64,000 nucleotides of DNA, from positions 124,001-188,000 of the forward strand of contig NZ_AAEW02000005.1 in assembly GCF_000167355.1 (NCBI RefSeq), given 5' to 3'. This DNA is from Desulfuromonas acetoxidans DSM 684. GTDB lineage: Bacteria > Desulfobacterota > Desulfuromonadia > Desulfuromonadales > Desulfuromonadaceae. Below are positions 16,347 through 34,488 of the stretch, one piece after another. Each line of letters begins with the position of its first letter. Positions within the stretch are counted from its first letter, which is position 1. The position numbers and the translations under genes were made by a program. The notes below the pieces were generated by a model, which made no database searches, was not told the DNA's origin, and was given only the letters and a program-made list of their open reading frames with translations.

Positions 16347-16369
16347 CGTTGACCGTAGTTTATCGCATT

Positions 16370-16388
16370 GTGTCAAGGATGTTGACAC
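16370..16388. repeat. palindrome before the first 12-heme cytochrome gene
   Basis: GTGTCAA and TTGACAC are perfect 7-bp arms with a 5-base spacer, 31 bases before the ATG at 16419. It may be an operator or a leader hairpin between the propeller and cytochrome genes. Confidence 0.35.
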
Positions 16389-16418
16389 GCCATGAAATTC
16401 AACTTTCAGGAGGAAAAC

Positions 16419-17201: not shown

Positions 17202-17254
17202 TCCGGCGATAGACTGTTAACACCTATCTATCTGTTGTTATGAAGAGGAGACCC

Positions 17255-18136
17255 ATGAAACGAATCAAAAGACATCTCAGCGTATTTATCGCCGTCGCAT
17301 TTATCGCCGGCATCTGGGGCTGCGTTGAACCAACCAACAGCTCCATGGTAACCTCGGTCGCCCAGGCCAAGTCACGTGACAAAGAGGAAAAAAGTCCCTA
17401 TGAGCAGGACGTTAAACCTCTGACAACACTTGATTGTGCCCGTTGCCACTATTCTGTCTTTGAAATCATCCGTGACAATGGTGGCAAACACCAGCTTGAC
17501 TGCCAATTCTGCCACGAGACATTCCACACCTATCGCCCGGACAAGAACTGGAGCGATGTGGTCCCCCAATGCACCACCTGTCATGGCGAAATCCACGGAC
17601 CAACATTCCTCGATTGCCTGAGCTGTCATGGCAATGCCCATATGCCGATTGCCGGCCTGACTAACATGACAACCCTGGAGAAAGACTGTGCCAACTGCCA
17701 TACCGCCCAATCGGCTGAAGTCACCCAGTATCCGAGCGCTCACAGCAAAGTAGCCTGCAGTGATTGTCACCACACCCAGCACGGCTACAAGCCGGATTGT
17801 GTTGAATGCCATGAGCAGCCTCACACCGACTATGCCAACAATGATTCTTGCATGGGCTGCCATCCGGTCCATAAACCGCTGGAAATTCGTTACACCGAAG
17901 AGACTCCCAACGGTGTCTGTGCGACCTGCCATGAAGAGATCAACTCACGGTTGATCAGTACCCACAAAAAGCACGCGTCTTTACAGTGTGCCTATTGTCA
18001 CCAGGAGACCCACGGCAACATCCCGCAATGTCAGGATTGCCATGGTCTGCCGCACAGCAAGGGGATGCTCGACAAGTTCAATGGCTGCACGGATTGCCAT
18101 TTTGATCCGCATGCGCTGGTACTCCCCGGCCATTAA
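17255..18136 (+). CDS. dodecaheme lipoprotein cytochrome c (12 CxxCH)
   Basis: Paralogue of the preceding cytochrome, 293 residues. The signal peptide ends in a lipobox (IWGC, Cys23), so the mature protein should be lipid-anchored. A charged linker of about 35 residues follows, then twelve CxxCH motifs, again often with a trailing His (CHETFH, CHGEIH, CHGNAH, CHHTQH, CHEQPH). GAGGAG just before the ATG at 17255 excludes the in-frame ATG 15 bases upstream. The lipid anchor suggests that the pair splits the work: a soluble periplasmic carrier and a membrane-attached one. Lipoprotein sorting (inner or outer membrane) cannot be settled from sequence. A strong hairpin and a sigma-54-type promoter follow. 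Confidence 0.92.
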   Translation: MKRIKRHLSVFIAVAFIAGIWGCVEPTNSSMVTSVAQAKSRDKEEKSPYEQDVKPLTTLDCARCHYSVFEIIRDNGGKHQLDCQFCHETFHTYRPDKNWSDVVPQCTTCHGEIHGPTFLDCLSCHGNAHMPIAGLTNMTTLEKDCANCHTAQSAEVTQYPSAHSKVACSDCHHTQHGYKPDCVECHEQPHTDYANNDSCMGCHPVHKPLEIRYTEETPNGVCATCHEEINSRLISTHKKHASLQCAYCHQETHGNIPQCQDCHGLPHSKGMLDKFNGCTDCHFDPHALVLPGH

Positions 18137-18155
18137 TGATGATGGTGCCGCATCA

Positions 18156-18172
18156 GTGGCACACGCCCTGCT
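18156..18172 (+). promoter_or_regulatory. sigma-54-type promoter for the outer-membrane barrel operon
   Basis: GTGGCACACGCCCTGCT has GG at 18158-18159 and GC at 18170-18171 with exactly 10 bases between, a complete TGGCAC -24 element and TGCT at -12. This is the best sigma-54 match in the window. Expected start is near 18183, about 90 bases before the barrel gene. Confidence 0.6.
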
Positions 18173-18197
18173 CCGCCACCGCTCGCGGTGGCGGAGC
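18170..18197. terminator. 13-bp perfect GC-rich hairpin between cytochrome and barrel genes
   Basis: GCTCCGCCACCGC pairs perfectly with GCGGTGGCGGAGC around a 2-base loop, 33 bases after the lipoprotein cytochrome stop. No T-run follows. It overlaps the -12 end of the sigma-54-type promoter, so a transcript from upstream would contain the hairpin while one starting at that promoter would not. Confidence 0.55.
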
Positions 18198-18272
18198 ACT
18201 CATGTTATTTCATGTGATTGAATCGACGGGTTACACCCTCTTTATCCCGATAACCCGGATGCTTGAATTCTT

Positions 18273-20312
18273 ATGTCGTTATTGCAGGGTATAAAAAAGA
18301 CTGTCGCATCCTTGTCGCTGGCACTGCTGTTTGCCGTCGAAGCTGCGTCATCCCCATTGCATCTCACCGGCAACTGGAGCCAGCCCTATGGCGACGACAG
18401 TGACCAGTGGAAGTTGGGCCAGAGCTACAATCTGGATCTGAGCAATGATCTGACCTCTGCCCTGCGCATGTCGGCTAACATGCGCTATACCACCAACAAG
18501 AAAAAAGATTCAGCAGATACCGAAACCCTGTCACCGTCGGTTCTCATCGGCCTCAATAACGACCTGTTCAACCTGAGCCTTAACGGCATGGAGAACCGCC
18601 GCAAGGTTGAAGATGAACCGACAACCATCAACCGCAGTTGGAGTACGACGTTTATCAGCTCACTGGATGAACGGTACTGGCCGCAACTGCGTCTCAACTA
18701 CAGCCAGAACACGACAACGGATGATGCCTCACCGAAAACGAGTGATCAGCAGTCGGACATTTTCGATTCGAGTCTTAAATATAAATGGCGATTCCTGTCA
18801 TTTCTTTACGATTTCACCAACAGTATCGACACCAATAAAATCGAAGACACCGAGAATGAAAACACCAATCATTCGGCACGTATTCAGTGGCAGGACACCT
18901 ACTGGAACAACCGCTTGAGTGTCATTGCCTCACACAAGTACAGCCATGATAAAAACACCATTACAGCCACATCGGGCAGCAGTCAGATCAGCCGGCCGCT
19001 TTTGCCCAGTGCCGGGATCACCAGCCTCGATGACACCCCGTCAAACGATCCACTGGCGTCAGAACCGGCGTTGATCGATAACGATCTGTTTACCCCAACC
19101 GGCGTTGAGCTGCTGCAGCCGACGGAAACGGTCAATGTCGGGGTGCAAATCAACCTGGAGAGTTTCAATGAATTGGTTTTTTATCTCGACCGCGAAATCG
19201 ACGCGACAACGCAAAGCCGTTTAAGCTGGAGTTTTTATGGCAGCCTCAACAACGATGACTGGTCACCAGTCACCACACCGACAACCATCATTTACTCCGT
19301 TGAGGATGGCCGTACCCTGGTCACCGTTGAATTTCCATCAGCGGTTGAAAACCTGCGCTATATCAAGGCCGTTGTCACATCAACAGCGGGTGTCAGTACC
19401 GCCTTTATTACCGAAATCGATGTCAACCAACTGGTGACACTGGCACCGGGAGACAGCTCTCTGACCACACTGACCCGCACCCATTTAAGTCAGGGCAGCA
19501 TCAGTTTCAGGCCATGGGATCAGTGGAACCTGGGCTACACCTTCAACCGCAATGACACCGATTCAGACAGTCGCTCGCAATCGCTTCAGTTCAATCAGAC
19601 CCTCAACAGTGCCCTCAATCTCAACCGGTACTTTGCCCTGTCCATGAGTGTCACGGAAACCACCGATGACATCGAAGATCAGGATACCATCAAGAACCGC
19701 TCCTATGCTCTGTCCTACCGGGCCACGCCGCTCAACAGTTTGAGTTTCTCTCTGGGGGGAACACGTACGGAACATTTTATCGACAGCAGCCTCAACAGCC
19801 GCTCCGACACTTTGAACAGCCATCTGTCAGCGACCCTGTTTCCCGACCTAACGGCCGGACTGTCGGCAAACTGGACCCGCAGTCAGGATAAAGAGAATAA
19901 CGAAGAGACGACCAACTGGGACTATCGCTTCGATATTGCCGCACGCTTTACCGATTCGTTTAATCTGTCAGCCAGTTACACTTATCGCGACAACGATGAC
20001 GGCAGCAGTGACAACAATTACGAGATCAACACCGTCTATCGTCCATCGACGTATATCTCCCTGACAACGGGTTACAAACGCAACGATGCGACAGACAATC
20101 TCTATTCAACACTGAATTTCCGCCTGACCCGGAAAATTCAGACTGATTTTCGTTATGCCTATCTCAAAGCGGATACAACGGTGCAGTCGGCCAGTTTCAA
20201 CCTGACCTGGAACTTAAGTACGATTTTCAACCTCCGCCAGAGTCTGGCCTGGGCAGACGATGGCGAAGAACAGACCTGGTCCGGCCTGACGACTCTTAAC
20301 TACAATTTCTGA
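18273..20312 (+). CDS. outer-membrane beta-barrel protein of the electron conduit
   Basis: Predicted outer-membrane barrel of 679 residues. It has a signal peptide (ending near AASS), many alternating amphipathic strands with Asn, Thr, Ser and Tyr, and a C-terminal Phe (TLNYNF), the signal for barrel insertion. Between about residues 255 and 400 the pattern is interrupted by a segment that reads like a beta-sandwich (VNVGVQINLESFNELVFYLD, then YIKAVVTSTAGVSTAFITEIDV), with no strand periodicity of a barrel. This may be a surface or periplasmic domain. Size and location among multiheme cytochromes suggest the porin of a porin-cytochrome complex such as MtrB or OmbB, though I see no direct similarity to those. 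First gene of the cluster behind the best sigma-54-type promoter. Confidence 0.82.
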   Translation: MSLLQGIKKTVASLSLALLFAVEAASSPLHLTGNWSQPYGDDSDQWKLGQSYNLDLSNDLTSALRMSANMRYTTNKKKDSADTETLSPSVLIGLNNDLFNLSLNGMENRRKVEDEPTTINRSWSTTFISSLDERYWPQLRLNYSQNTTTDDASPKTSDQQSDIFDSSLKYKWRFLSFLYDFTNSIDTNKIEDTENENTNHSARIQWQDTYWNNRLSVIASHKYSHDKNTITATSGSSQISRPLLPSAGITSLDDTPSNDPLASEPALIDNDLFTPTGVELLQPTETVNVGVQINLESFNELVFYLDREIDATTQSRLSWSFYGSLNNDDWSPVTTPTTIIYSVEDGRTLVTVEFPSAVENLRYIKAVVTSTAGVSTAFITEIDVNQLVTLAPGDSSLTTLTRTHLSQGSISFRPWDQWNLGYTFNRNDTDSDSRSQSLQFNQTLNSALNLNRYFALSMSVTETTDDIEDQDTIKNRSYALSYRATPLNSLSFSLGGTRTEHFIDSSLNSRSDTLNSHLSATLFPDLTAGLSANWTRSQDKENNEETTNWDYRFDIAARFTDSFNLSASYTYRDNDDGSSDNNYEINTVYRPSTYISLTTGYKRNDATDNLYSTLNFRLTRKIQTDFRYAYLKADTTVQSASFNLTWNLSTIFNLRQSLAWADDGEEQTWSGLTTLNYNF

Positions 20313-22441: not shown

Positions 22442-23044
22442 ATGGCGCGTCTGATTGCACACATCCTGCTCTGCAGTATGTTAATCGCCTGTGCCGGAAA
22501 AACACCAACAACGACGGAAGTTCCCGGCCAGCATAAATCAGCCGGATTCTGCCGGATTACCGTGCTGCCTTTTGCCAACGACACGGATGAACCAAGACTG
22601 GGTTTAATTGCCGAAAAGATCTGTCAGACCGAGCTGTTACAGCGCGAAGCTCAAGTTGTCAATGAAGCGGATGTGCGCCTGTTCCTACAAAAACGACAGG
22701 TCTTTACCTCGGAGTTGACCCAACACGGCAGCACGGAACTGTATGCCGCCCTGGCCGAAGAGCTCAAAACCAAAGTCATTATCCGCGGTCGCATTCTGAC
22801 GATTGATGATGAGAAAAAACAGGGCGAAATTGTTCCGATCATCACCCTGCAACTGGAACTGATCAATGCCACGGATGGACAGTTGATTGTCAGTTCCTTT
22901 CTGCGTCGCAGCGGTGAAGATTATCGCACCATTCTTCATTACGGTGTCATTCGCACCCGTAGTGAATTGATTCGGCAGATCATTGCCGAAATTTTTAACG
23001 ACTGGATAGCGCGAGGAGTTGTAAGTTGTCAAAAATCTGCGTAA
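22442..23044 (+). CDS. lipoprotein, CsgG-like fold predicted
   Basis: Lipoprotein of 200 residues (lipobox LIAC, Cys17). The body follows the same plan as the lipoprotein at 20369: a first strand CRITVLPFANDTDEPRLG, a helix ending in LLQREAQVVNEADVRLFL, then LAEELKTKVIIRGRIL and QLELINATDGQLIV. The ATG at 22442 is one base past the previous stop and opens directly with the signal peptide; the longer open frame starts inside the neighbouring gene. The third CsgG/LpoB-like product in a row. Together they may form an outer-membrane export or assembly complex for the cytochromes, which is inference. Confidence 0.72.
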   Translation: MARLIAHILLCSMLIACAGKTPTTTEVPGQHKSAGFCRITVLPFANDTDEPRLGLIAEKICQTELLQREAQVVNEADVRLFLQKRQVFTSELTQHGSTELYAALAEELKTKVIIRGRILTIDDEKKQGEIVPIITLQLELINATDGQLIVSSFLRRSGEDYRTILHYGVIRTRSELIRQIIAEIFNDWIARGVVSCQKSA

Positions 23045-24645
23045 GAATCAGCCTGACCACCCTGATCTGTCTGTTATGGATAGGTAGCACAAGCCATGCC
23101 CTGTTCTGGCAGGATCCACCGCTTGTCGCCATCAACGATCAATCCTGGAATCGTCAAGACTTCCTCAACTGGTGGCAGGAATGGAAAGAACCGGGCATGG
23201 AACAACCGCAAAGTCCGGATGACTTCATCGACTGGATACTTCTCTCTGATGAAGCGGAGCAGATGCAGCTGTATGATGAACCGCGTTTCAAGCAAAAAGT
23301 GCATACCTTCTTGAAGGTTCGCTCACTAATGATGCTGAAAAATGAGGAAGTGGATGAAAAAATCTCCGTCAGTGATGAGGAGATCGATCGCATCTATCAC
23401 CGTGATTATACACCGTTGCTCAAATTACGCTCCATTGAACTGGACAGCGAGGAACAATGTGCTGCGTTTATGCAGGCGGTCAGTCAAGGATTATCCAGCG
23501 ACGAGGTTCTTGCCGACCCATTATTGCAATTGCCGCAAACAGGTTTGTCTGAACCGATTGTTCAACGCCCCAACCAGTTACCACCGCATGTTCGCACCTT
23601 GTACGAACAAGACCCACAAACCCGTTACCTGCCGGCTTACAGTTATCAGGATCGTTGGTTTATTCTCGAGATTATGCAACGTGATCCGGGCAATGACAAT
23701 GATCGGGCCAATGTCGCTGAATCAATCAGCTATACATTACGCAAGGACAAACAACGTGAGCTGACCGGTCAACTCAATATGCGTTTAATGGAAAAGTATC
23801 AGGTCAAGATGGATGAGCAGGGAATGAAACGGATCCATGAAGACGGTCCGGAAGAGGATGTCGCCGAAGCGGCCATGATTACATTTCCCGATTTCACCAT
23901 CACCGGCCAGATTCTCTACAAAAACGCGCTGAGCCACTATCAGCGTTTCGGCGGCAAAGAGATGAAAGACACCTCGTTTGAGGAGATTGTCCAGCGCGTT
24001 GCCAACGATATTGTGGCTCAATCGCTCACCAGCATGGAAGCGCTCAATCGCCACTATGAATCAAAGCCGCCTTTTCAGTCGGTGTACTTTTTTTACCAGC
24101 GCCATCGTCTGATCCGTGAACTGGAAAGCAAACTGATCCTGCCCTACACCCAGGTCAGTGACGAGGAACTGAGCCACTACTACAACGAGCACCGAGAGGA
24201 CTATGCCTATCCGGTGCGGGTCCGTTATGCCAGCGTGGAAACGCGCAACGAAAAAATGGCCCTGAAATTGCGTGAAGATTTGCGTCAAGGCGCTGATTTT
24301 TATCAGACATTATCACCGTTATCTCCCGCAGGCATTGAAACGAAAACAACACCACTGGCCCATCTTATCCCGGAAATGCAGGACTTAATTGACCGTTTAC
24401 AGCCGGGGCAATCCGACATGTTAGAGGTGGATGGCTACTTCCACTTTATCCGCTTAATTGAGGAACCTAAGGTGGATTACAAGCCATTTGACCAGATCCG
24501 TGATGCCCTGAAAGCGCAACTGACGCAGGCAAAGTTCAGCCAACGACGCGCTGAACTGGTTGCGCAGCTGCGCCAACGCACGACAATTACCGTGAATCAA
24601 AATCAATGGCAACGCTGTCTCAATGAACTCAACAAGGGGCAATAA
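23026..24645 (+). CDS. SurA/PpiC-like periplasmic chaperone (parvulin-fold)
   Basis: Exported protein of 539 residues. The TTG start at 23026, behind a GAGGAG site, gives a signal peptide ending near SHA. The N-terminal helical part (FLNWWQEWKE, then LKVRSLMMLKNEEVDE and SVSDEEIDRIYH) followed by an alpha/beta module with LKLRSIELDSEEQ matches the SurA/PrsA layout. A second such module lies near residues 380-475 (LSHYYNEHREDYAYPVRVRY ... GYFHFIRLIEE). Parvulin active-site residues are not obvious, so it may be a chaperone rather than an isomerase. It overlaps the previous gene by 19 bases and is followed directly by the 26-heme cytochrome. A folding helper for barrels or cytochromes is plausible. 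Confidence 0.75.
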   Translation: MSKICVRISLTTLICLLWIGSTSHALFWQDPPLVAINDQSWNRQDFLNWWQEWKEPGMEQPQSPDDFIDWILLSDEAEQMQLYDEPRFKQKVHTFLKVRSLMMLKNEEVDEKISVSDEEIDRIYHRDYTPLLKLRSIELDSEEQCAAFMQAVSQGLSSDEVLADPLLQLPQTGLSEPIVQRPNQLPPHVRTLYEQDPQTRYLPAYSYQDRWFILEIMQRDPGNDNDRANVAESISYTLRKDKQRELTGQLNMRLMEKYQVKMDEQGMKRIHEDGPEEDVAEAAMITFPDFTITGQILYKNALSHYQRFGGKEMKDTSFEEIVQRVANDIVAQSLTSMEALNRHYESKPPFQSVYFFYQRHRLIRELESKLILPYTQVSDEELSHYYNEHREDYAYPVRVRYASVETRNEKMALKLREDLRQGADFYQTLSPLSPAGIETKTTPLAHLIPEMQDLIDRLQPGQSDMLEVDGYFHFIRLIEEPKVDYKPFDQIRDALKAQLTQAKFSQRRAELVAQLRQRTTITVNQNQWQRCLNELNKGQ

Positions 24646-26580
24646 ATGATGAATCGATGGTTCCCATCTTTTTTGATCGTTCTTTGTATGTTGTTACTCA
24701 GCTATGGCTGTTCCGGATCGGGAGGCTCAGCCAGACGAGTCGTTAAAGACTGTCTCGACTGTCATGCTGAATATCAGACGATGTTGCAGCACGATTGTCT
24801 GCATGATCCTCTCAAAGGGGGAACCTGCAACGGCTGTCATCGTAACCACGGGCTACTCGGCGGGGTTTACCTCAATACCGCTGAAAATGAACTCTGTTTC
24901 AAATGCCACCAGCAGATCACCTCAACGGCTGAGGATGCCGTCGTCCATCAACCGGTTGCCAAAGGCAACTGCGCGCCCTGCCATGATCCGCACGGTGGCA
25001 GCAACGACGCCCTGCTGGTCAAGAGTGGACGCGATTTATGCATCACCTGCCATGACGAGTCGTTATTCTCCGGACGCGTTCGGCATCAACCGGTGGATCA
25101 GAGCTGCGGCACCTGTCATGCCCCCCACTTCTCGATGCATCCGAATCGCCTGACCCAAGAGGAAAGCGCACAGTGTTTGACCTGTCATGACAACAAGGCC
25201 CAGATAAAGCAGCATCACAGCGGCTATCAGGTCACAACAGGCTGTAGTTCATGCCACACGGTTCACTCGTCTAATCGTGAGGGACTGTTGCGACCAAGCA
25301 TCCATCAACCCATTCTTGAAGGAGATTGTTCCGGCTGTCATGTCAGCTCGCAAAACCCATCACCGTTTGACTTAGTTCGTCACGATGCTGATTTATGCCT
25401 CGGCTGTCACGATGCCCTGCAACAGGATATGGCCCACGAGAGCAGTCACCAACCCGTCAAAGACGGTGACTGTTTCAGCTGCCATAACCCTCACGCCAGC
25501 GATCATGACAATTTGCTGACGCAAGCCCCTGAAACCTTGTGTTTTCAATGCCATGACCGGGAGAAAAAGCAAACCAGCCAACATCCGGCGTATTCCACCG
25601 GGCAATGTCTGGGTTGTCACACCCCGCACCGTTCACCCACAAACCAACCGGCGCTGCTGCGGGCACCACTCAACAGCTTATGCGCCTCCTGTCATGAACA
25701 GGGCCAACAAAACATGCGGGTTTCCCATGCCCCGGTCAGTGACACCGCCTGCGACACCTGTCACGCGCCCCATGGCAGCACACAGCCATCGCTGCTGGTC
25801 GAGCCACAACAGGAGCTGTGTTTAGACTGCCACGAAACCATGCGTGAGCCGTTAGCCCGTCTCAACCTGCATGCCCCGGCAGCGACCAACGACTGCTCCG
25901 GTTGCCATCAACCCCACGGCAGCAACAACCGCAATCTGCTTGAAAAACGGGGCGCGGCGCTGTGCGCCACCTGCCATGAAGAAACCGAAGAGATGCGTTT
26001 GCATGGCCCGACCCACAGCCCGTTTAAACAGGGGCAATGCCAAACCTGCCATGACCCACATGCCAGTAATTATGCCGGTCTGACCGTCAAGGACACCAAT
26101 GCCATCTGCTTTGACTGTCATCAGGATTTGGTCAACGACAAAAAAGTGCATCAGCATTCGCCATTTGCCCAGGGCAACTGCACCACCTGCCATCATCCAC
26201 ACGGCAGCGGCTATGTTGCCAACCTCAAACAGGCCTTACCCGATTTGTGCCTGAGCTGTCACGATGTCGATCATTACTGGGCCACAGGGGTCGCTCATGA
26301 ACCGGCTCGTCAGGGACAATGTACCGCCTGTCACAATGTTCATCAGTCAGATCGCCCTCACTTGCTGACCATGGACGTTGACCGTCTCTGTCAACAATGC
26401 CATGAAGAATCTCCCCAGCAACTGGCTGTCCACCACGGTGGGATCGCTCCCGGAGGAGATCGTTGCCTGAGTTGTCACGACAGCCACGGCGGTCAGGACC
26501 GCTCTTTGACATTCCCGATTAAACACCAGCCTTTTGTAGAGAAGAACTGCCAGGCCTGCCACCAGGGAGGGACACACTGA
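24646..26580 (+). CDS. 26-heme lipoprotein cytochrome c
   Basis: Very large multiheme cytochrome: 644 residues with 26 CxxCH motifs and a lipobox (SYGC, Cys22). The motifs come in regular doublets: one CxxC-H-x-P-H-G type (CAPCHDPHG, CTTCHHPHG, CDTCHAPHG) alternates with one LCxxCH type (LCITCH, LCLDCH, LCATCH). Each doublet has a linker such as HQPVxxGxC, where the first His may be a distal ligand. This is the doubled-CXXCH repeat family, here about 13 units. Such a protein can carry electrons over a long distance. The stop overlaps the next cytochrome start by one base. It shares the HQPV/HAPV linkers with the 16-heme neighbour. Lipid anchor and context suggest an outer-membrane location. 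Confidence 0.93.
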   Translation: MMNRWFPSFLIVLCMLLLSYGCSGSGGSARRVVKDCLDCHAEYQTMLQHDCLHDPLKGGTCNGCHRNHGLLGGVYLNTAENELCFKCHQQITSTAEDAVVHQPVAKGNCAPCHDPHGGSNDALLVKSGRDLCITCHDESLFSGRVRHQPVDQSCGTCHAPHFSMHPNRLTQEESAQCLTCHDNKAQIKQHHSGYQVTTGCSSCHTVHSSNREGLLRPSIHQPILEGDCSGCHVSSQNPSPFDLVRHDADLCLGCHDALQQDMAHESSHQPVKDGDCFSCHNPHASDHDNLLTQAPETLCFQCHDREKKQTSQHPAYSTGQCLGCHTPHRSPTNQPALLRAPLNSLCASCHEQGQQNMRVSHAPVSDTACDTCHAPHGSTQPSLLVEPQQELCLDCHETMREPLARLNLHAPAATNDCSGCHQPHGSNNRNLLEKRGAALCATCHEETEEMRLHGPTHSPFKQGQCQTCHDPHASNYAGLTVKDTNAICFDCHQDLVNDKKVHQHSPFAQGNCTTCHHPHGSGYVANLKQALPDLCLSCHDVDHYWATGVAHEPARQGQCTACHNVHQSDRPHLLTMDVDRLCQQCHEESPQQLAVHHGGIAPGGDRCLSCHDSHGGQDRSLTFPIKHQPFVEKNCQACHQGGTH

Positions 26581-27761
26581 TGAATTATCGCAGTTGGATT
26601 ATGTCGTTGCTGCTTCCGGCCCTGGTTTTGGTCAGTGTGAGTAACTCATTCGCTGCCTCTCCCTGTTTTCAATGCCACGACCCAGCCCTTTTTAACGGTA
26701 AGGTAACCCATGCACCGGTCGCCAAAAACAAATGTGACCAGTGCCATAATCCACATCTGGCCAAATTTGACGGTCTGTTGCTCAAACAGGGCAGCCAGCT
26801 GTGCTTTCAATGTCACGATACCTTTGAGGCCAACGTTTTTAGCAAAAAAGTTGTTCATCAACCGGTCGCCGAGGGGCAATGCAGTGCCTGTCATGAACCA
26901 CACGCTTCGGCAACATCGGGCCTGTTAAAACGCTCCATGTCCGAGTTGTGTCTGACCTGTCATAACGATATTGACGAGCAACCGGGTAAAAGCCACGCAC
27001 CGTTTGCCAAAGGGCAATGCGCCACCTGTCATTTGCCCCACTCCGGTGATCGGCGCGCCCTGCTTAAAGCGGATAACAGCGCGGTGTGTTTGAGCTGTCA
27101 TCAATCGAGCCCGGCATTGCGCCGTCAACACCTTAACCGCTCGTTGGACGGTGTCGATTGTCTGGAATGTCACCAGCCCCACAAATCGCAACAGGTCAGC
27201 TTGTTACGCGAGAACCTGCATCAACCGTTTGCCGAGGGAAAATGTCAGAGTTGCCACTCGCGCAACAACGATCTGAGTTTGTGCCTAAGCTGTCATGAAG
27301 AGATTCTGACGTCGTTCAACCACCAGTTCAGCCACCGGGTTGTCGGATCCCAGACCAATGGATGTTTCAATTGCCACAGTCCCCATGCCAGTCGTCAACA
27401 GGGGTTGATCAAACAGGCACCGGGCCAGGCATGTCGTCAATGCCACGAAGGAAAATTTGAGCGCCGCGCCACAAGCCTTTATGTGCATCCTGATGCCAAT
27501 AACTGTGTGACCTGTCATCAACTGCACGGCTCCGATCTGCCGGCCATGCGCAAAAAAGATAACGACTCGGCCTGTGTTGACTGCCATGAGCGTCACAGCA
27601 ATTTCAGCCATCCGATGGGGGATAAAGCGCTTGATCCCCGCAATGGCCAACCGATGAATTGTATCTCCTGTCATGATCCCTGTAACGGCACGATGTTTAA
27701 GTACAACCTCAGGGGAACCAGCGATAAGGGTTTGTGTATCCTGTGTCATGCCGGATATTAG
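26580..27761 (+). CDS. 16-heme c-type cytochrome with doubled CXXCH repeats
   Basis: Exported cytochrome of 393 residues with a signal peptide (cleavage near SFAA) and no lipobox. It contains 16 CxxCH motifs, largely in the same doubled-CXXCH arrangement as the 26-heme protein (CHNPH, CHEPH, CHLPH, CHQPH, CHSPH alternating with LCxxCH). The most C-terminal motifs (CISCHDPCNG, LCILCHAGY) differ. The ATG overlaps the TGA of the preceding gene. The pair likely arose by duplication and acts together, one anchored and one soluble. Together they hold 42 hemes. Confidence 0.93.
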   Translation: MNYRSWIMSLLLPALVLVSVSNSFAASPCFQCHDPALFNGKVTHAPVAKNKCDQCHNPHLAKFDGLLLKQGSQLCFQCHDTFEANVFSKKVVHQPVAEGQCSACHEPHASATSGLLKRSMSELCLTCHNDIDEQPGKSHAPFAKGQCATCHLPHSGDRRALLKADNSAVCLSCHQSSPALRRQHLNRSLDGVDCLECHQPHKSQQVSLLRENLHQPFAEGKCQSCHSRNNDLSLCLSCHEEILTSFNHQFSHRVVGSQTNGCFNCHSPHASRQQGLIKQAPGQACRQCHEGKFERRATSLYVHPDANNCVTCHQLHGSDLPAMRKKDNDSACVDCHERHSNFSHPMGDKALDPRNGQPMNCISCHDPCNGTMFKYNLRGTSDKGLCILCHAGY

Positions 27762-27771
27762 GAGGGACACT

Positions 27772-28713
27772 ATGCGTTTATTTTCATCCCAACAACGAAA
27801 GACGGACACCGTCGACATGGGCGTAATCCACAAAAAAAACAGCATCAGGTTGACCCAACACCTGCTTTGCCTGGCTCTGCTGCTGTTGGTTCCGGCGCTG
27901 GTTTGTGCCAAGGCGCCATCCTGGCACAGCAGTCTGTCATTCCCCAAAGAGATGGCCATTGATGCGCCATCGGGATTGGTAATCGATCAGGCCCGCAAAC
28001 GCTATTACGTCATCGATTATAACGCCGACCAGTTGGTGTCGTTTGATGAACAGGGCCAATTGATCGATCGCTTTGATGCCATGGGCCGCCTGAAAAAACC
28101 GGTCAGCATGGCCTTCGGTGCGCCCGGCAAGATGTGGGTGGTTCAACGCAGCACCAACGAACTGTTGTATATCGACTTGAACAGTCGTGATGTGCGCCGC
28201 TTCAATGTGAGTAAAACGAGTGGCCAGCCGATGCTGATTGACCGCGTGGCTACGGATGACCAGCAACGGCTTTATGTTGCCGACAGTCACAGTGGCCGGA
28301 TCTTTCGACTGGACGACAACCTCAAAATCACCACCATTTTTGCAGGAAAACGCGACAGCCAGCTGATCGATTTTAAAATTGCCGGCTCCACCTTGTATGC
28401 TCTGGACAGCCAGCATCAGCAATTACACAGCTTTACTCTGGATGGCCAGCACAAGGACACGATTGCCCTTAAAGGGGATCTGGATCGGCCGGTTTCCTTT
28501 GTCTTGGATTCGCACGGCATGATCTACATCCTGGACCGCCCACAAGGCAAAATTGCCGTTTTCACGGCAAAGGGGCTGTTCAAGTACGGCTTTTGCCACC
28601 GCGGCGCCCGGCGTGGCCAATTAAATTACCCCAGTGAACTGCACATGGACTGGCAGGACCGTCTGTGTGTGGTCAATCAGGGCAATGATCGCATTGAGGT
28701 TTTTAAACACTGA
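27772..28713 (+). CDS. NHL-type beta-propeller protein, exported
   Basis: Exported 313-residue propeller without heme motifs. The ATG at 27772 follows AGGAGGG; a long open extension into the preceding cytochrome gene is not coding. A basic N-terminus of about 25 residues precedes a signal segment (LLCLALLLLVPALVCA). Blades show the NHL pattern, for example SGLVIDQARKRYYVIDYNADQLVSF-like units and a C-terminal LNYPSELHMDWQDRLCVVNQGNDRIEVF-like unit. It resembles the propeller at 15357 in size and placement. It separates the 16-heme gene from the first OmcS-like cytochrome, which starts 22 bases after its stop, and is likely in one operon with both. Confidence 0.84.
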   Translation: MRLFSSQQRKTDTVDMGVIHKKNSIRLTQHLLCLALLLLVPALVCAKAPSWHSSLSFPKEMAIDAPSGLVIDQARKRYYVIDYNADQLVSFDEQGQLIDRFDAMGRLKKPVSMAFGAPGKMWVVQRSTNELLYIDLNSRDVRRFNVSKTSGQPMLIDRVATDDQQRLYVADSHSGRIFRLDDNLKITTIFAGKRDSQLIDFKIAGSTLYALDSQHQQLHSFTLDGQHKDTIALKGDLDRPVSFVLDSHGMIYILDRPQGKIAVFTAKGLFKYGFCHRGARRGQLNYPSELHMDWQDRLCVVNQGNDRIEVFKH

Positions 28714-28735: not shown

Positions 28736-29848
28736 ATGATGATGTCAGCCAATCGAAGAATAAAAGCAGTTAAACAGGTGACAACGAGAAGAGTCCACGC
28801 CCTTTCCGGTCTCATCGCGGTTTTTTTGTGCCTGTTCGCAACGATGACACACGCGAAGGTCATCGGTCCCTGCTCCAACTGCCACACCATGCACAACAGT
28901 CAGAACAACAGTCTGGTCAACAGTTCCGGACCAAACCATTCTCTGCTGCTCAACGACTGTGTCGGTTGTCATACCGGTGCCAATACCGAAGGCGACTCCA
29001 CCCCGTTTGTTCATAACACCGGCACAGTTGATTACAACACCTCCGGTATTGAGGGAGATACACTGGCTGGCGGCACTTTCAAATATGTGGCAACCAGTGA
29101 TTACAAAGGACACAACGTTGAAGGCATTGCTAATCCCGATCTGACCTTGTCAGCACCTCCTGGATTTGATGGCGGACGACAGGCGGCCGATGCCACCACT
29201 CCGGGTGGCGGTCTGTGGTCAAACCAGCAGATCACCTGTGCCGGCACATACGGCTGCCACGGCAGTCATGCGACAAGTGACCCGTATCAGGCGATCTCCG
29301 GCGGCCACCATAAGAACAGCCAAGGCACGGCAATTACGGCACCGGGAACGGCACCTGAGGATGGATATCGACTTCTGGTCGGCATTGCCGGATATGAAGA
29401 TCCTGAGTGGGAATTTACGCCAACAGCCGCGCTGCATAATCAGTACAAAGGGGTGGATGATGCCGGTCAGTACAGTGACACATCGACCATCAGTTATTTT
29501 TGCTCGCAATGTCACGGTCAGTACCACAATCCATCAGCGAATTTGAGCACCGGGGGCGGCTCCCCCTGGCTGCGCCATCCGACAGATTACGACATGGGCA
29601 ATACCGACCTTGATTCCGAATACCGCAACTATGGCGACATCGGCAATCCCTACCTGCCCGCCACACCGGTGGCCAGTGCTTCGGTGGCCAGTGTGAAAAG
29701 TACTGTGACATTTGCCGATGACACCATCGTCAACTGCCTGTCCTGCCACCGTGCTCACGGCTCCAATTATTATAAAGCCATGCGCTGGGGCTATGCTGAA
29801 AGCAATGATGGCGGGTTATGCTCCAACTGTCATACCAGTAAGGATTAA
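28736..29848 (+). CDS. OmcS-like hexaheme-type cytochrome with a CX5CH third site
   Basis: Exported protein of about 370 residues that matches the plan of Geobacter OmcS, the subunit of extracellular cytochrome filaments. In order: CSNCHTMHNS (heme 1), CVGCHTG (2), the KGHN His segment, CAGTYGCHG (position 3), CSQCHGQYHN (4), a WLRHP segment, CLSCHRAHGS (5) and a C-terminal CSNCHTSKD (6). In OmcS position 3 is a normal CxxCH; here it is CX5CH, repeated in the paralogue at 33403. Five canonical motifs are certain and heme attachment at the sixth is inferred. The start is among three ATGs at 28736-28742, without a clear ribosome site. Signal peptide ends near THA. Confidence 0.85.
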   Translation: MMMSANRRIKAVKQVTTRRVHALSGLIAVFLCLFATMTHAKVIGPCSNCHTMHNSQNNSLVNSSGPNHSLLLNDCVGCHTGANTEGDSTPFVHNTGTVDYNTSGIEGDTLAGGTFKYVATSDYKGHNVEGIANPDLTLSAPPGFDGGRQAADATTPGGGLWSNQQITCAGTYGCHGSHATSDPYQAISGGHHKNSQGTAITAPGTAPEDGYRLLVGIAGYEDPEWEFTPTAALHNQYKGVDDAGQYSDTSTISYFCSQCHGQYHNPSANLSTGGGSPWLRHPTDYDMGNTDLDSEYRNYGDIGNPYLPATPVASASVASVKSTVTFADDTIVNCLSCHRAHGSNYYKAMRWGYAESNDGGLCSNCHTSKD

Positions 29849-29897
29849 ACCGGCCAGGGACAATATGTGTAACTCTTGCAGATTTAATGGAAATTTC

Positions 29898-31286
29898 ATG
29901 AACTATTTTCGATGGCGATATCTGATCTCAACACTACTTGCAGTGATTCTACTGGCTGCCTGTCAACCAAATCTCGTTGAGACGCCGACCCAGTCTCGCT
30001 CAACAACGGACAGCATTGTGTCGGTGTACCTCAATTACACATCCACTGCGGATTTTCGCCTAGAAATTCAAGATCTGGAGTTACGCAGCAAAGATATCTG
30101 GCTCCCCTGCCGTGGCAATACTTCTGACACCAGACGTTCCAGTCGCCAACACCTGATTGCGTTGGATGCTCTTCCGGCAGCACAGTACGATCAGGTTCGA
30201 TTTCGTGTTGAACTCTATTCTGAACAGAACACGCTCCTGCGCACAGAGCAGGTCACTCTGGGGATCGCCAACCATCTGCTTCTCAAGCCATCGGGGAGCC
30301 AGTGTCTGTTTTTACACTGTCGATTGTCCCCGTACACGCTTGACCGCCCACTTCCGGAGCAATTTGTCGTTGAAAATCAGGTAGCACCGTTGGCGGACAA
30401 TCTGCTTTACGCCCTGTGCCCTGACCTGTCAACGGTTTATATCATCCGCACCGACCAATTTACCGTCACCGCCGCCTACCCGCTCCAGGGACAAATCAGC
30501 GACATGGTGGTCGATAACGACCGGCGACTGATCTATTTTCTCGACCGTCAACGCCAGCAGATTCAACGCTGGGACGGTATCTCACAACAGATGACCGACC
30601 GCATTCCCTTGCCCATGACTCAGAGCCCGGAAGGCCTGGAGATCTCCCCGGACGGGGAATTCTTGTTCGTCACCGATACCGTCAACCGCCAATTGCTTAA
30701 AATCGACGCTGAAAATGGAACCCGTCTGGCTCAAGTCAACATCGGTCATGAGCCATCGCAGCCCTACTGGTTCGAGCACAATGGTCAGGCACGCTTGGCG
30801 GTGATCTCTCTTGGCGACCAACAACTGCATCTGGTCAGTGCCGACAGCCTGGCCACGATGGCTGAAGTGACGGCAGGGCAACAACCGTATGAAACCGTGT
30901 ATGCCAACAATGCCCTGTTTGTCAGCGACAGTTTCGATTATCAGATCCTGCAACTGGATCCCGACAGTGGCGTTCTTCAGGCGCGCATTCCCACCATGGG
31001 CCGCCCCATGGCCATGCTTGACGACACCATTCAACGCAATGTCATCATTGCCGAACAGTCCCGCTCAGGGCTGGCGTTACTGCCCTACGGGCAACAGTTG
31101 ATCGCCCGGCACATTGCGGCAGGTGCGGCACCCCACGATCTGGCCATCTCCAACAAACGCCGCCTGTTGTACATTGCTGATGAAATCAACCATTCGATCG
31201 TCGTCCTTGATCTGCCATCGGAAAAAATCATTCAGACGATCGAAGTCGGATCAACGCCAGATGTCATCATGGTTCAGGAGCCTTAA
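29898..31286 (+). CDS. lipoprotein with YVTN/lactonase-type beta-propeller
   Basis: Lipoprotein of 462 residues (lipobox LAAC, Cys22). The first about 130 residues of the mature protein are beta-rich without a recognised domain and contain Cys. From about residue 160 repeated blades of the YVTN type follow (EGLEISPDGEFLFVTDTVNRQLL, APHDLAISNKRRLLYIADEINHSIVVL in part). No heme motif. The ATG at 29898 gives a proper lipoprotein signal; another ATG at 29865 has a slightly better ribosome site but a worse N-terminus. It stops 2 bases before the pentaheme gene. Third propeller of this locus, possibly a docking or assembly platform at the outer membrane. Confidence 0.78.
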   Translation: MNYFRWRYLISTLLAVILLAACQPNLVETPTQSRSTTDSIVSVYLNYTSTADFRLEIQDLELRSKDIWLPCRGNTSDTRRSSRQHLIALDALPAAQYDQVRFRVELYSEQNTLLRTEQVTLGIANHLLLKPSGSQCLFLHCRLSPYTLDRPLPEQFVVENQVAPLADNLLYALCPDLSTVYIIRTDQFTVTAAYPLQGQISDMVVDNDRRLIYFLDRQRQQIQRWDGISQQMTDRIPLPMTQSPEGLEISPDGEFLFVTDTVNRQLLKIDAENGTRLAQVNIGHEPSQPYWFEHNGQARLAVISLGDQQLHLVSADSLATMAEVTAGQQPYETVYANNALFVSDSFDYQILQLDPDSGVLQARIPTMGRPMAMLDDTIQRNVIIAEQSRSGLALLPYGQQLIARHIAAGAAPHDLAISNKRRLLYIADEINHSIVVLDLPSEKIIQTIEVGSTPDVIMVQEP

Positions 31287-31288
31287 AC

Positions 31289-32509
31289 ATGCACGACCAG
31301 CTCAAACATTTTTATGCCATCGTTGTGACGTCCCTCTGCCTGTTGCTGCTGAGCTCATTAACCTGTCAGGCCAATGATGCGTTGTGCCTTGACTGTCATG
31401 ACGAGATTAAACAGGTCATCGATGAAAGCTATTATGTTCACGAACCGGTACGAGCGTATAAATGTCGCGTCTGTCATGCCCGCGACGAATTCGAACCATC
31501 GATGCCGGTATCACAACCGGAGCCGAATAATAACTATGTGCTGGCCTACAAGCAGACAACCTCCCATGAGGAACAACCGATCACCTGGCTGGTGGAAAAC
31601 TTCACGCCGGCTTTTCATCAATCAGCTTTGATCAAGCAACGCAAACTCAAAGATCGCCTAATCCTCGATCTCTGGTATCAACAGGCAGGCAAAAAGACCC
31701 ATCAGTTCGACACACCTGATCTGGACGCACTACAAACGCAGAATCCCCGTTACCAGATGCTTGCCATCGAAAACCTGTATCTCACCGATTTCGATACTCG
31801 TTTGGTGCCACGCGCCACTCTGCACTGGAACACCAATGAACCAAGCCGGTGTACAACCAGTTACGGCAACAAGGCTCTGGATGTCGTGTATGAGGAAGAT
31901 GATCTGTACCTTTATGACCATCACATTGATCTGCGCAATTTCACCGATGGCGGTTACGTGGTGGAGATCTCCTGCCGCGATCCCTATCGACGTGTAAAAA
32001 CCACCGACCGGTTCAATATTCTGACATTGCCGGTTCGTGAGCAACCCATTGCAGCACCCCCAGTGGAAGAAGATCGAATCGCCTTGAAAAACCTTCAGGG
32101 CAAATTGTGGATCGAGGTGGAATCGCACCAGCCAGCCAGTTTGTCCGTTGGCGTTCAAAAGACGGCCGATAGGCAGCAAGCCGTCGATGAACCACTGTCT
32201 CAGGCTCTCGTCGAGACCACCACTGCGGATAGTGAACGTTCGGAAGACGAACACATCACGTTGAATACACGACTTTATACAACAACCCAAGTGTGCCACA
32301 AATGCCATACCGGCCTTGAGCCGGGACAATCGCACCCGGTTAATGTGCTGCCACCGTTGAATATGATTGTCCCCCCGGAATACAAACGGCTTAAAAACGG
32401 AAAAATCAGTTGCATGACCTGCCATACGGTGCATGGCAGCAACACCGAACATCGTCTGATCAAAAAGTCCCCCAAAGCCCTGTGCACCGGATGTCATACA
32501 AATTATTAA
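31289..32509 (+). CDS. pentaheme c-type cytochrome with central non-heme domain
   Basis: Exported protein of 406 residues with a signal peptide ending near CQA. Two CxxCH motifs stand at the N-terminus (LCLDCH near 33, KCRVCH near 58) and three at the C-terminus (VCHKCH near 336, SCMTCHTVHG near 373, LCTGCH near 399). Some 270 residues between them have no heme and read like one or two beta-sandwich domains (ARATLHWNTNEPSRCTTSYG, then DGGYVVEISCRD). Split heme clusters around a beta domain could place the protein at an interface or bind a partner. CHTVHGS near the end resembles the doubled-CXXCH units of its neighbours. It is coupled to the propeller lipoprotein upstream. Confidence 0.87.
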   Translation: MHDQLKHFYAIVVTSLCLLLLSSLTCQANDALCLDCHDEIKQVIDESYYVHEPVRAYKCRVCHARDEFEPSMPVSQPEPNNNYVLAYKQTTSHEEQPITWLVENFTPAFHQSALIKQRKLKDRLILDLWYQQAGKKTHQFDTPDLDALQTQNPRYQMLAIENLYLTDFDTRLVPRATLHWNTNEPSRCTTSYGNKALDVVYEEDDLYLYDHHIDLRNFTDGGYVVEISCRDPYRRVKTTDRFNILTLPVREQPIAAPPVEEDRIALKNLQGKLWIEVESHQPASLSVGVQKTADRQQAVDEPLSQALVETTTADSERSEDEHITLNTRLYTTTQVCHKCHTGLEPGQSHPVNVLPPLNMIVPPEYKRLKNGKISCMTCHTVHGSNTEHRLIKKSPKALCTGCHTNY

Positions 32510-32553
32510 CCGATCTGCGGTATTACTGACCATAACAGAACAAGGAATCCCCC

Positions 32554-33108
32554 ATGACTGCTGACAAATTCAAACGCAAACTGGTCAACCTGAATGTGAA
32601 ACGCCGCTTACAGCTCTGGTTGCTGATCCGCATCGGCGGCATCATCATTCTGACCTCCATCATTTCCGCACTCATCCTCTACGGCTATGCCCGTCACGAA
32701 ACCATCGACACCTTCTATCAGGCGCATATCAAAATTCGCCGTGTCAGTGATCTGCTGTTGCCGGTTGTCTTATCCGGATCAGCGATCAGTCTGATCAGCG
32801 GCGCCCTGCTGGCGTTATTTCTGCCACAGAAAATTGCCGGGCCGCTTTACCGCATTGAACAAGAACTTAACAAGGTTAAGGCTGGAGATTTTCGCACGAA
32901 AATCAGGCTGCGCACCAAAGACACTCTGGTCAATTTCACCAGTCAGATCAACGACACGATCGCAACCGTGGATCAGCGTCTAAGTGACATGCAAAAAGCC
33001 ATGAACAGTATTGACAATATTGAATCACTGCCGCAGGACACCCGGGAAAAACTCGACGATGTCAAGCGACTGCTCAACGACTGCAAGACCACACTGAACA
33101 ATCACTGA
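32554..33108 (+). CDS. two-TM HAMP-domain membrane protein without output domain
   Basis: Inner-membrane protein of 184 residues. Two membrane segments (about residues 28-47 and 69-88) are separated by a short periplasmic loop. A HAMP-like stretch follows (LPQKIAGPLYRIEQELNKVKAGDF), then a helical coiled-coil tail. No kinase, GGDEF or chemotaxis output domain is present. The layout is typical of truncated sensor relatives found beside cytochrome genes in this group; its role is not known. A weak AAGGAA site precedes the ATG. A good terminator follows, so it is probably the last gene of the operon. Confidence 0.75.
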   Translation: MTADKFKRKLVNLNVKRRLQLWLLIRIGGIIILTSIISALILYGYARHETIDTFYQAHIKIRRVSDLLLPVVLSGSAISLISGALLALFLPQKIAGPLYRIEQELNKVKAGDFRTKIRLRTKDTLVNFTSQINDTIATVDQRLSDMQKAMNSIDNIESLPQDTREKLDDVKRLLNDCKTTLNNH

Positions 33109-33130
33109 TCACCATCAGCTTCCCATCAGG

Positions 33131-33170
33131 CTCCGTTTGTTTCGTCGTCGAGACAAACGGAGCTTTTTTC
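33131..33170 (+). terminator. rho-independent terminator after the HAMP gene
   Basis: CTCCGTTTGT pairs with ACAAACGGAG around a spacer rich in CG, followed by a C and six T. It lies about 22 bases after the stop at 33108 and closes the large operon. Confidence 0.8.
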
Positions 33171-33251
33171 TTCCGCCCTCCATCAGCCAGTCGGCACGCT
33201 TCTTGATATTTATACCTGTAACAACATAAACAGCTGGCACAACCACTTAAA

Positions 33252-33273
33252 ATGGGTGTTATTGCCCACCCAT
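33252..33273. promoter_or_regulatory. inverted repeat upstream of the second OmcS-like gene
   Basis: ATGGGTG and CACCCAT, 7 bp each, flank an 8-base spacer, about 130 bases before the ATG at 33403. Spacer length and G/C-run arms recall the repeat at 15308-15331. An incomplete sigma-54-like sequence (TCGGCACGCTTCTTGAT, GA in place of GC) lies at 33191-33207. The rest of the 294-base gap has no gene. Confidence 0.35.
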
Positions 33274-33402
33274 AGGGGCAGATAACACAAGTGCGGCATA
33301 CAGCGACACAACGATTCATAAGCTTAAGACATAGAATATGAAAGAAAGATCGTTCTAGCCAATATCAGACACAAACTGCCACAACACTTCAGGAGGGAAA
33401 CA

Positions 33403-34488
33403 ATGAAAACTTCACGGCTTGGTTTGCTACTTATCGTCACACTGGTTCTTTGGAGTTCCAGTGCCCTGGCGAGCGTCAGCGGTTCCTGTGCCAACTGCCA
33501 TACCATGCACGCCACTGACGGCGCCGGTAACACTCTTGCCGGTGGCGCTAAAGGGTCATTAACCATTGGCGGCTGCGTCGGTTGCCACACCGGTAACAAC
33601 GAAGACGCAGACGGTGCTTCCGCCGGTGCCGGCGGCGTTCCTTACGTTATGGATACCGCCGAGCCGACTTACGGTCCGGAATACTCCGGTGGTACGCTGG
33701 TTGCTAATGTCCAGACCTTGGCTGGCGGCAGCTTCTGGTGGGTTGGTAAATCCGCCGGCAACGATGCTACCACGGGCCACAATGTGACAACAGACGGCCT
33801 GTGTGATTTTGATATGGACGCTCCCGGCCGTCGTGACGGCGATCAAACAGCATTCAGCTCCGGTGCTCCGCTGACCTGCGCCGGCACCATGGGGTGCCAC
33901 GGTGACCGCAGCGTCGCTGGCGACTATGCGAGTATCAGTGGTGCCCACCACGGTTCATCGTCGACAACAGTTGACGACAGCTTCCGCTTCCTCGATGGAA
34001 TTGCCGGCACCGAAGCGCCGGATTGGGAGTACGCTGCAGCCATTGACAACCACAACAGCTATAAAGCTCAAGCACGCAGTGAAGCGTCAACCATGTCCGA
34101 TGGCGGCGATACCATCAGTTCCCTGTGTGGTCAATGCCATGGAGATTTCCACAGTGGTACCGACACAGTATCTGACGGCAGTGCCTGGTTGCGTCACCCG
34201 ACCGATATCGTTCTGCCGGCTGGCGAGTATGCCTCCTACGCGTCTATCCCGGACGAATCCGGTATCTATAACATCATTGCCCCTGTTGGTGTAGCCACTC
34301 CAATTGCCTCAACAGCCGATGTAACCCTGGCCAATTCTGTCGTCACCTGCATCTCCTGCCATCGCGCACACGGCTCACCGTATGCCGACCTACTGCGTTG
34401 GGACTATGCCAACATCAGCGCTGGTTCACCCATCGGTGGTGTTGACAACAACGGCTGCTTCGCCTGCCATACCAGCAAGGATGGTTAG
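33403..34488 (+). CDS. OmcS-like hexaheme-type cytochrome with a CX5CH third site (second copy)
   Basis: Paralogue of the cytochrome at 28736, 361 residues, with a clear signal peptide ending near ALA and a strong AGGAGGG ribosome site. The order of motifs is the same: CANCHTMHA, CVGCHTGN, a GHN segment, CAGTMGCHG (CX5CH), CGQCHGDFH, WLRHPTD, CISCHRAHGS and a C-terminal CFACHTSKDG. Shared unusual site and shared segments (FLDGIAG... here, LLVGIAG... there) show recent common origin. As a separate transcription unit with its own strong terminator it may be the more highly expressed copy. By family it may form or cap extracellular filaments; that is inference. Sequence is Gly, Ser and Ala rich, unlike the Gln- and His-rich doublet cytochromes. 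Confidence 0.87.
   Translation: MKTSRLGLLLIVTLVLWSSSALASVSGSCANCHTMHATDGAGNTLAGGAKGSLTIGGCVGCHTGNNEDADGASAGAGGVPYVMDTAEPTYGPEYSGGTLVANVQTLAGGSFWWVGKSAGNDATTGHNVTTDGLCDFDMDAPGRRDGDQTAFSSGAPLTCAGTMGCHGDRSVAGDYASISGAHHGSSSTTVDDSFRFLDGIAGTEAPDWEYAAAIDNHNSYKAQARSEASTMSDGGDTISSLCGQCHGDFHSGTDTVSDGSAWLRHPTDIVLPAGEYASYASIPDESGIYNIIAPVGVATPIASTADVTLANSVVTCISCHRAHGSPYADLLRWDYANISAGSPIGGVDNNGCFACHTSKDG

Follow-up and report, generated by a model that had tools for sequence, protein, structure and literature searches.

A CX5CH motif in place of CxxCH at the third site of OmcS-like cytochromes from Desulfuromonas acetoxidans and its relatives

We analysed two genes for OmcS-like multiheme cytochromes in a 64,000-nucleotide stretch of the Desulfuromonas acetoxidans DSM 684 genome (contig NZ_AAEW02000005.1, positions 124,001 to 188,000; hereafter the window). 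Both proteins, P0001 and P0002, have at the third motif position (site 3) a CX5CH sequence, in which five residues rather than two separate the cysteines. Sequence comparisons lead us to favour, with a probability of roughly 0.8, the reading that CX5CH functions as a site of covalent heme attachment and that both are six-heme proteins of the OmcS kind. The first-pass annotation of this DNA had offered either a noncanonical heme or a lost site; a retained noncanonical heme is now favoured and a lost site disfavoured, because the two cysteines and the histidine never vary in the clade and because homologous sites change their spacing yet keep Cys...Cys-His. The heme at site 3 is probably present.

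Lengthened motifs across the family

Translation yielded frames without internal stops for both proteins and confirmed the motif order that had been described for them: C..CHTMH, CVGCHTG, GHN, CAGT[YM]GCHG, C.QCHG..H, WLRHP, C.SCHRAHGS and C..CHTSKD, with CAGTxGCHG at site 3. The two share 37% identity, and among the eight open reading frames (ORFs) of the window with at least two CxxCH motifs they alone have the lengthened form. The genome (an assembly of 3.8 Mb in 51 contigs, 96% complete) holds four family members at E ≤ 0.001, these two included. One on contig 2 has seven CxxCH motifs and an ordinary CADCH at site 3, and another (L004, contig 15, 19945–21018) has CTNSCH, that is, CX3CH. 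The relative L025 has CGTNSCH, or CX4CH, at the same position.

Family matches occur in 31 of 98 genomes, D. acetoxidans included. When a profile was run against 395 genomes of the phylum, 52 of them had matches; many weaker matches were partial and possibly represent other cytochromes. A scan of named genomes returned 481 relatives among 561 candidate stretches, of which the best 80, from 77 loci, were taken. The titles of their records include Desulfuromonas, Desulfobulbaceae, Desulfofervidaceae, Thermodesulfatator, Thermodesulfobacterium and others, and the CX5CH clade is represented under these five names. Viral contigs gave no family match. Removal of identical and contained sequences left 216 proteins, near-copies among them. 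The loop-length counts rest on regular expressions with anchors; 194 proteins had the anchors needed, and 22 were dropped as partial or lacking anchors such as C..CH.MH. Three of the 194 rows are gapped at sites 5 and 6, their C-terminus being missing. Close relatives also appear in records titled Chloroflexi, Heimdallarchaeota and Deferribacteres (L083, L099, L089 and L126); because these are contigs of metagenome-assembled genomes, misbinning is likelier than transfer.

The first-pass annotation had argued that conservation of the unusual spacing in both copies speaks against a random error, and had proposed a search for the motif in other OmcS homologues. That search found CX5CH at site 3 in 146 of the 194 relatives, which bears out the argument and turns a feature noticed in two copies into a clade-wide trait, wider than was claimed. 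All 194 rows have a CXnCH at this site; besides the 146, there are 30 with CX2CH (6 OmcS-type and 24 others), 10 with CX3CH, 7 with CX4CH and 1 with CX6CH. Each of the 22 relatives set aside likewise keeps a CXnCH as far as its sequence reaches, L028 having CX6CH.

That CX5CH stems from a sequencing or assembly error, or from a chance cysteine, is vanishingly improbable: the motif is present in other genomes with synonymous codon differences, and the relatives together with a background scan of other multiheme ORFs rule out such an origin. The scan covered 242 distinct ORFs on the family loci, each with at least five CxxCH motifs (3,426 CxxCH in total), and found 17 CX4CH and 7 CX3CH motifs and no CX5CH, CX6CH or CX7CH. 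A DNA pattern for CAGxxGCHG matched at 19 places in 11 of the 31 genomes, every one of them within a family match, and a reversed-pattern control matched nowhere. On this evidence the motif appears specific to the family in the loci and 31 genomes scanned.

Conservation at site 3 is strict. Along CAGTxGCHG, the column counts in the 146 CX5CH rows are 146 for the first Cys, 136 for Ala, 145 for Gly, then two free positions, and 146 each for the closing Gly, Cys, His and Gly; in P0001 the invariant residues are Cys168, Gly173, Cys174, His175 and Gly176. The two cysteines and the adjacent histidine are thus conserved together, as an expanded CXnCH motif would have them, in every row. The ordinary CxxCH sites are kept in 143 or 146 of the 146 rows (the missing three are the gaps at sites 5 and 6), whereas the histidines at positions 39, 68, 93 and 178 vary.

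We built a tree of 118 of the 194 rows with the site-3 region excluded. All 75 CX5CH rows in it lie on one side of a single branch (97 in the Shimodaira–Hasegawa-like approximate likelihood ratio test), and the spacing states require nine changes, against a minimum of four and a mean of 39.5 after shuffling, with none of 200 shuffles as low. Some sister rows differ by a single residue (L173, CX3CH; L175, CX4CH). The tree came from a quick search and 34 of its 115 inner branches are weakly supported, so our claim is limited to the coarse pattern and does not extend to the direction of gain or loss.

An extra CxxCH ahead of a conserved HH pair is present in 39 of the 42 non-OmcS-type rows with other spacings and in 0 of the 146 CX5CH rows. 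A MAFFT alignment had placed CX5CH at the second of two adjacent motifs of seven-heme paralogues. We set this candidate aside, judging by eye, and assigned CX5CH to site 3 because the distance to HH and the ISG...HH context fit that site better. Two relatives, L202 and L216, have eight CxxCH motifs, which suggests that heme number also varies within the family.

Some CX5CH rows have a second variable motif, which follows HN.Y and precedes site 4. In 145 of the 146 (one lacks the anchor), 124 have no such motif, and the loop measures 2 residues in 7 rows, 3 in 2, 4 in 5, 5 in 1, 6 in 3 and 7 in 3; L185, L035, L210, L044, L115 and others provide examples from CX3CH to CX7CH. The flanks are alike for loops of 3 to 7 residues (P...LGC or P...VSC before, mostly SCH after), as if only the length of the loop were changing. 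In the seven CX2CH rows the flanks are less similar, and homology is claimed by position only. Those second-site rows that are in the tree all belong to a single group of 18 CX5CH rows. We regard this series as the strongest argument that the lengthened sites may be heme sites with tolerant loops, because neither a disulfide nor a relic would be expected to keep Cys-His while the loop changes.

Relation to OmcS and the case for a heme at site 3

A profile of the CX5CH family matched Geobacter sulfurreducens OmcS in the Protein Data Bank (6ef8_A) at E = 3e-22, the next match being NrfB at 0.0034; OmcZ is not among the 11 matches at E ≤ 1. P0001 alone matched OmcS at E = 9.7e-6. With OmcS (PDB 6EF8/6NEF) the proteins share motif order and profile similarity, and copy 1 shares the fold; in OmcS-type rows CxxCHTMH, GHN, RHP and the second-last CHxxH align with those of the CX5CH rows. 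The differences are as clear: OmcS has six CxxCH motifs (PMC6584659), in contrast to the CX5CH at site 3 here, and the HH and HN conserved in CX5CH rows are missing at the aligned columns of OmcS-type rows. Because they have five CxxCH and one CX5CH rather than six CxxCH, we class P0001 and P0002 as OmcS-like homologues and do not file them as OmcS.

The AlphaFold2 model of P0001 (73 alignment rows; predicted local distance difference test score, pLDDT, 76.5; predicted template modelling score 0.76) has site 3 in a beta-hairpin with strands at 166–169 and 173–175, in a block with pLDDT 85–91. In the P0002 model (79 rows, pLDDT 67) the hairpin strands are at 158–160 and 164–166. Four of the five CxxCH sites of P0001 are in short helices, the fifth lying in a low-confidence tail, and all five in P0002 include helical residues, making nine of ten over both models. 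A structural match to OmcS, which the first-pass annotation had named as a test, was found for copy 1: aligned with VIA-align to 6ef8_A, the P0001 model gave Z 12.9 and a root-mean-square deviation of 4.5 over 249 aligned residues (28% identity; model residues 44–369), against Z 3.6 for OmcE. The model of copy 1 tracks OmcS almost from end to end, so heme 3 of P0001 could occupy nearly the position that it has in OmcS. A changed heme stacking in a filament, which had been expected whether the heme was noncanonical or lost, is possible but unsupported.

Several of our results weigh against the six-heme, OmcS-kind interpretation. P0002 alone gave no OmcS match at E ≤ 1, though it is 37% identical to P0001, and its model (pLDDT 67) reached Z 2 with neither of the two chains compared. 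The Z of 12.9 likewise comes from a comparison of two chains, and high values may be unspecific for helical models. Foldseek found no significant match in the PDB for either model (best E 1.1 to OmcE for P0001 and 8.6 to a nitrite reductase fragment for P0002), and OmcS was not in its P0001 list at E ≤ 10. In the profile alignment to OmcS, C174 lies opposite a proline and H175 opposite the second histidine of CSSCHDPHG, which suggests that site 3 may be remodelled rather than stretched by insertion. The AlphaFold2 models are heme-free, and a cross-strand pair of cysteines is also disulfide-friendly. Published work adds that in Wolinella a dedicated synthase is required for CX15CH (PMC3601427, PMC7096707) and that altered spacing can derail attachment by the Ccm system (PMC3601427).

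The histidines bear on heme number. Outside the motifs, H53, H126, H191 and H192 are present in all 146 CX5CH rows, H234 in 142, H264 and H281 in 145 each and H341 in 143 (three gaps). These eight would be enough for six bis-histidine hemes, a count that fits five equally well. The extra histidine of the first motif, H53 of CxxCHTMH, is kept in 146/146, 24/24, 18/18 and 6/6 rows of four classes, rows without C..CH.MH having been excluded beforehand; we take it to be the residue that ligates heme 5 in the adjoining subunit. A ligand of heme 5 in OmcS is supplied by the neighbouring subunit (PMC7096707). HH191/192 and H234 are missing at the aligned columns of the six OmcS-type rows, which leaves room for a ligand scheme unlike that of OmcS.

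If the site-3 heme had been lost, the hairpin would be clamped by a disulfide between C168 and C174 on its two strands, leaving five-heme cytochromes. Both AlphaFold2 models do place the cysteines on opposite strands, and the lack of a neighbouring extra CxxCH in CX5CH rows means either that a nearby heme was lost or that the extra one was never gained. A disulfide, however, needs no histidine after the second cysteine, yet H175 is invariant, and the Cys-His of site 3 is also kept in the CX2CH, CX3CH, CX4CH and CX6CH relatives. Candidate distal histidines are in surplus rather than reduced, although that surplus by itself does not separate five hemes from six. We consider the loss very unlikely. 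Also unlikely is a heme held by a single thioether, to C174, while C168 stays free or bears an additional sulfur. Products with extra sulfur have been obtained from altered spacings in the Ccm system (PMC3601427); against this, C168 is as invariant as C174, unlike a dispensable cysteine, and the first cysteine is kept at homologous sites at each loop length seen.

In the six-heme reading that we prefer, P0001 and P0002 would be secreted c-type cytochromes of the OmcS kind, with CX5CH, in place of CxxCH, holding the site-3 heme. Each strand of a short hairpin (CA-GTY-GCH) would carry one of the two cysteines, which would reach both heme vinyls much as those of a CxxCH turn do; the histidine after the second cysteine would coordinate the iron on the proximal side, and a further conserved histidine on the distal side. 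Maturation may proceed by the cell's ordinary System II synthase (CcsB/CcsA), which would tolerate loops of more than two residues. The proteins would probably polymerise like OmcS, with the extra histidine of CxxCHTMH serving as ligand to a heme in the adjoining subunit, and the adjacent cassette would serve their export.

Gene cassette and maturation

The two genes are part of a cassette whose features are collected in Table 1. It runs in the order PpiC isomerase, 26-heme cytochrome, 16-heme cytochrome, NHL protein, copy 1, YncE-like protein, 5-CxxCH cytochrome, small protein, copy 2.

Table 1. Features of the two cytochrome genes and of their cassette, in window positions
Feature	Positions	Strand	Basis or remark
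P0001, OmcS-like cytochrome copy 1 (370 aa; 5 CxxCH + 1 CX5CH)	28736..29848	+	ORF, homology, model
P0001 site 1, CxxCH, C46-H50, then TMH (H53)	28871..28885	+	
P0001 site 2, CxxCH, C75-H79	28958..28972	+	
P0001 site 3, CX5CH, C168-AGTYG-C174-H175	29237..29260	+	predicted beta-hairpin
P0001 His pair H191-H192	29306..29311	+	invariant in CX5CH rows; candidate distal heme ligands
P0001 site 4, CxxCH, C256-H260	29501..29515	+	
P0001 site 5, CxxCH, C334-H338	29735..29749	+	
P0001 site 6, CxxCH, C362-H366	29819..29833	+	
P0002, OmcS-like cytochrome copy 2 (361 aa; 5 CxxCH + 1 CX5CH)	33403..34488	+	ORF, homology, model
P0002 site 3, CX5CH, C159-AGTMG-C165-H166	33877..33900	+	predicted beta-hairpin
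PpiC-type peptidyl-prolyl isomerase	23026..24645	+	
26-CxxCH multiheme cytochrome	24646..26580	+	
16-CxxCH multiheme cytochrome	26580..27761	+	
NHL-repeat beta-propeller directly upstream of copy 1	27769..28713	+	27769 is a frame cut, not a start codon
YncE-like beta-propeller between the copies	29817..31286	+	29817 is a frame cut, not a settled start
5-CxxCH multiheme cytochrome	31289..32509	+	
184-aa protein	32554..33108	+	no Pfam match; two hydrophobic stretches by eye

This gene order largely recurs across many loci, many of which have two CX5CH copies. It is not universal: where upstream DNA extends for 4.5 kb or more, 33 of 76 CX5CH rows have NHL, 16-heme and 26-heme genes directly upstream, and where it extends for 1.3 kb or more, 64 of 127 have an NHL gene upstream. 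With duplicates dropped, the block was counted in 0 of 8 CX2CH, 0 of 6 CX3CH and 0 of 2 OmcS-type rows; longer copies of the CX2CH loci L038, L041 and L073, which had been dropped as duplicates, do carry it, and there a seven-heme CX2CH relative occupies the place that CX5CH proteins fill elsewhere. An NHL gene stands upstream of these three seven-heme CX2CH relatives and also of L027 and L196. At L048, an OmcS-type gene is about 7 kb from homologues of the ppi, 16-heme and 26-heme genes. Upstream of the cassette, window positions 15357–20312 encode a protein that looks NHL-like by eye, a pair of cytochromes with 12 CxxCH motifs each and a 679-residue protein weakly like an outer-membrane beta-barrel, below the Pfam cut-off; this is perhaps a porin–cytochrome conduit.

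An operon with 26-heme and 16-heme cytochromes, often with propellers, has been described in SEEP-SRB1 and Desulfuromonadales (Skennerton 2017, PMC5539420), and filaments of OmcS-like and OmcX proteins have been proposed from the oet cassette (Murali 2023, PMC10553843). The sulfate-reducing partners of anaerobic methanotrophic archaea covered by these papers share with the window the 26-heme and 16-heme cytochromes with propellers nearby, and CX5CH relatives turned up in records titled Desulfofervidaceae, Desulfobulbaceae and Thermodesulfobacterium. They differ in that the excerpted text of the two papers does not mention CX5CH for the OmcS-like genes, which we liken to ours by description and not by accession. 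Next to GSU2501, an OmcS-like gene, lies an eight-gene block that has been connected with the maturation and secretion of OmcS (PMC12977616, mBio 2026, citing Shen 2025); the window cassette resembles this GSU2500–GSU2493-type block, likened by its description only.

Homology and neighbourhood make filament formation plausible, and we infer a role in extracellular electron transfer. The proteins could instead bind their hemes and form no filament, acting as extracellular electron carriers with an OmcS fold, a proposal compatible with the other alternatives discussed here. Only OmcS among several OmcS-like paralogues of G. sulfurreducens is known as a wire (PMC12977616), and D. acetoxidans has four paralogues of its own. 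Pointing the other way are the TMH histidine of the first motif, kept in every row of four classes, and the resemblance, by description only, of the cassette to a block tied to OmcS maturation and secretion. We rate carriers without filaments as a real possibility at somewhat less than even odds.

Cytochrome c maturation genes were sought across the genome. PF05140 matched one ResB-like protein (in two pieces) and PF01578 matched three proteins. By eye and by their neighbours, these comprise a paired ResB and CcsA, a HemX-like protein whose neighbour is a hemA-like gene, and a divergent CcsA-like protein; none is encoded in the cassette. The divergent CcsA-like and ResB-like frames lie beside a TonB-receptor-like gene on contig 7 near 136.7 kb (L244), not near the cassette, and could possibly serve specialised heme handling. 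Between window positions 12166 and 34488, where not every ORF was scanned, none of the proteins that were scanned or read was recognised as a dedicated synthase. The lengthened motifs are therefore presumably handled by ordinary System II, with the divergent CcsA-like protein remaining a candidate. According to a review, maturation can accommodate a gap of more than two residues from one cysteine to the other (PMC7096707).

Known motifs and implications

Lengthened heme motifs are a known kind, CX4CH in Desulfovibrio cytochromes being one, and we regard the clade-wide CX5CH of OmcS-like proteins as a variant of these. The CX15CH of Wolinella MccA and the CKCH of Kuenenia (PMC7096707) are further cases of covalent heme c departing from CxxCH; unlike the motif described here, these and the Desulfovibrio motif belong to other families, and MccA needs a dedicated synthase. 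Heme 1 of OmcZ is the closest in setting, as a lengthened motif (14 residues between the cysteines) in a filament-forming cytochrome. OmcZ, however, has no sequence, fold or heme arrangement in common with OmcS, and its longer loop lies in the subunit interface (PMC9473688). Within the genus, Desulfuromonas acetexigens expresses OmcS homologues whose AlphaFold models have template modelling scores above 0.5 against OmcS (PMC12133095). We found no mention of a CX5CH heme motif in the open-access literature, a search that did not cover other spellings or subscription papers.

Counting of CxxCH motifs is commonly used to find and classify multiheme cytochromes (for example, PMC10553843, PMC5539420), and it scores CX5CH proteins as five-heme, so that a search for hexaheme relatives of OmcS could miss them. 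One published set comprises hexaheme proteins within 10% of the length of OmcS in Geobacter genomes (PMC12977616); if only CxxCH motifs were counted, a CX5CH protein would rank as pentaheme. Some of the taxa with the CX5CH clade have been discussed as partners in interspecies electron transfer (PMC10553843).

We lean towards the view that a widespread, nanowire-type class of OmcS-like proteins anchors a heme on a beta-hairpin (CxGxxGCHG), with natural loops of 2 to 6 residues at site 3 and of 3 (perhaps 2) to 7 at the second site. If so, System II synthase would read little beyond an upstream thiol and Cys-His, heme counts based on CxxCH would be wrong for the whole family, and hexaheme-only surveys for OmcS would skip these proteins. 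The natural series of loop lengths offers ready substrates for probing recognition by cytochrome c synthase, and a heme held on a hairpin raises the question of an altered potential or stacking inside a filament.

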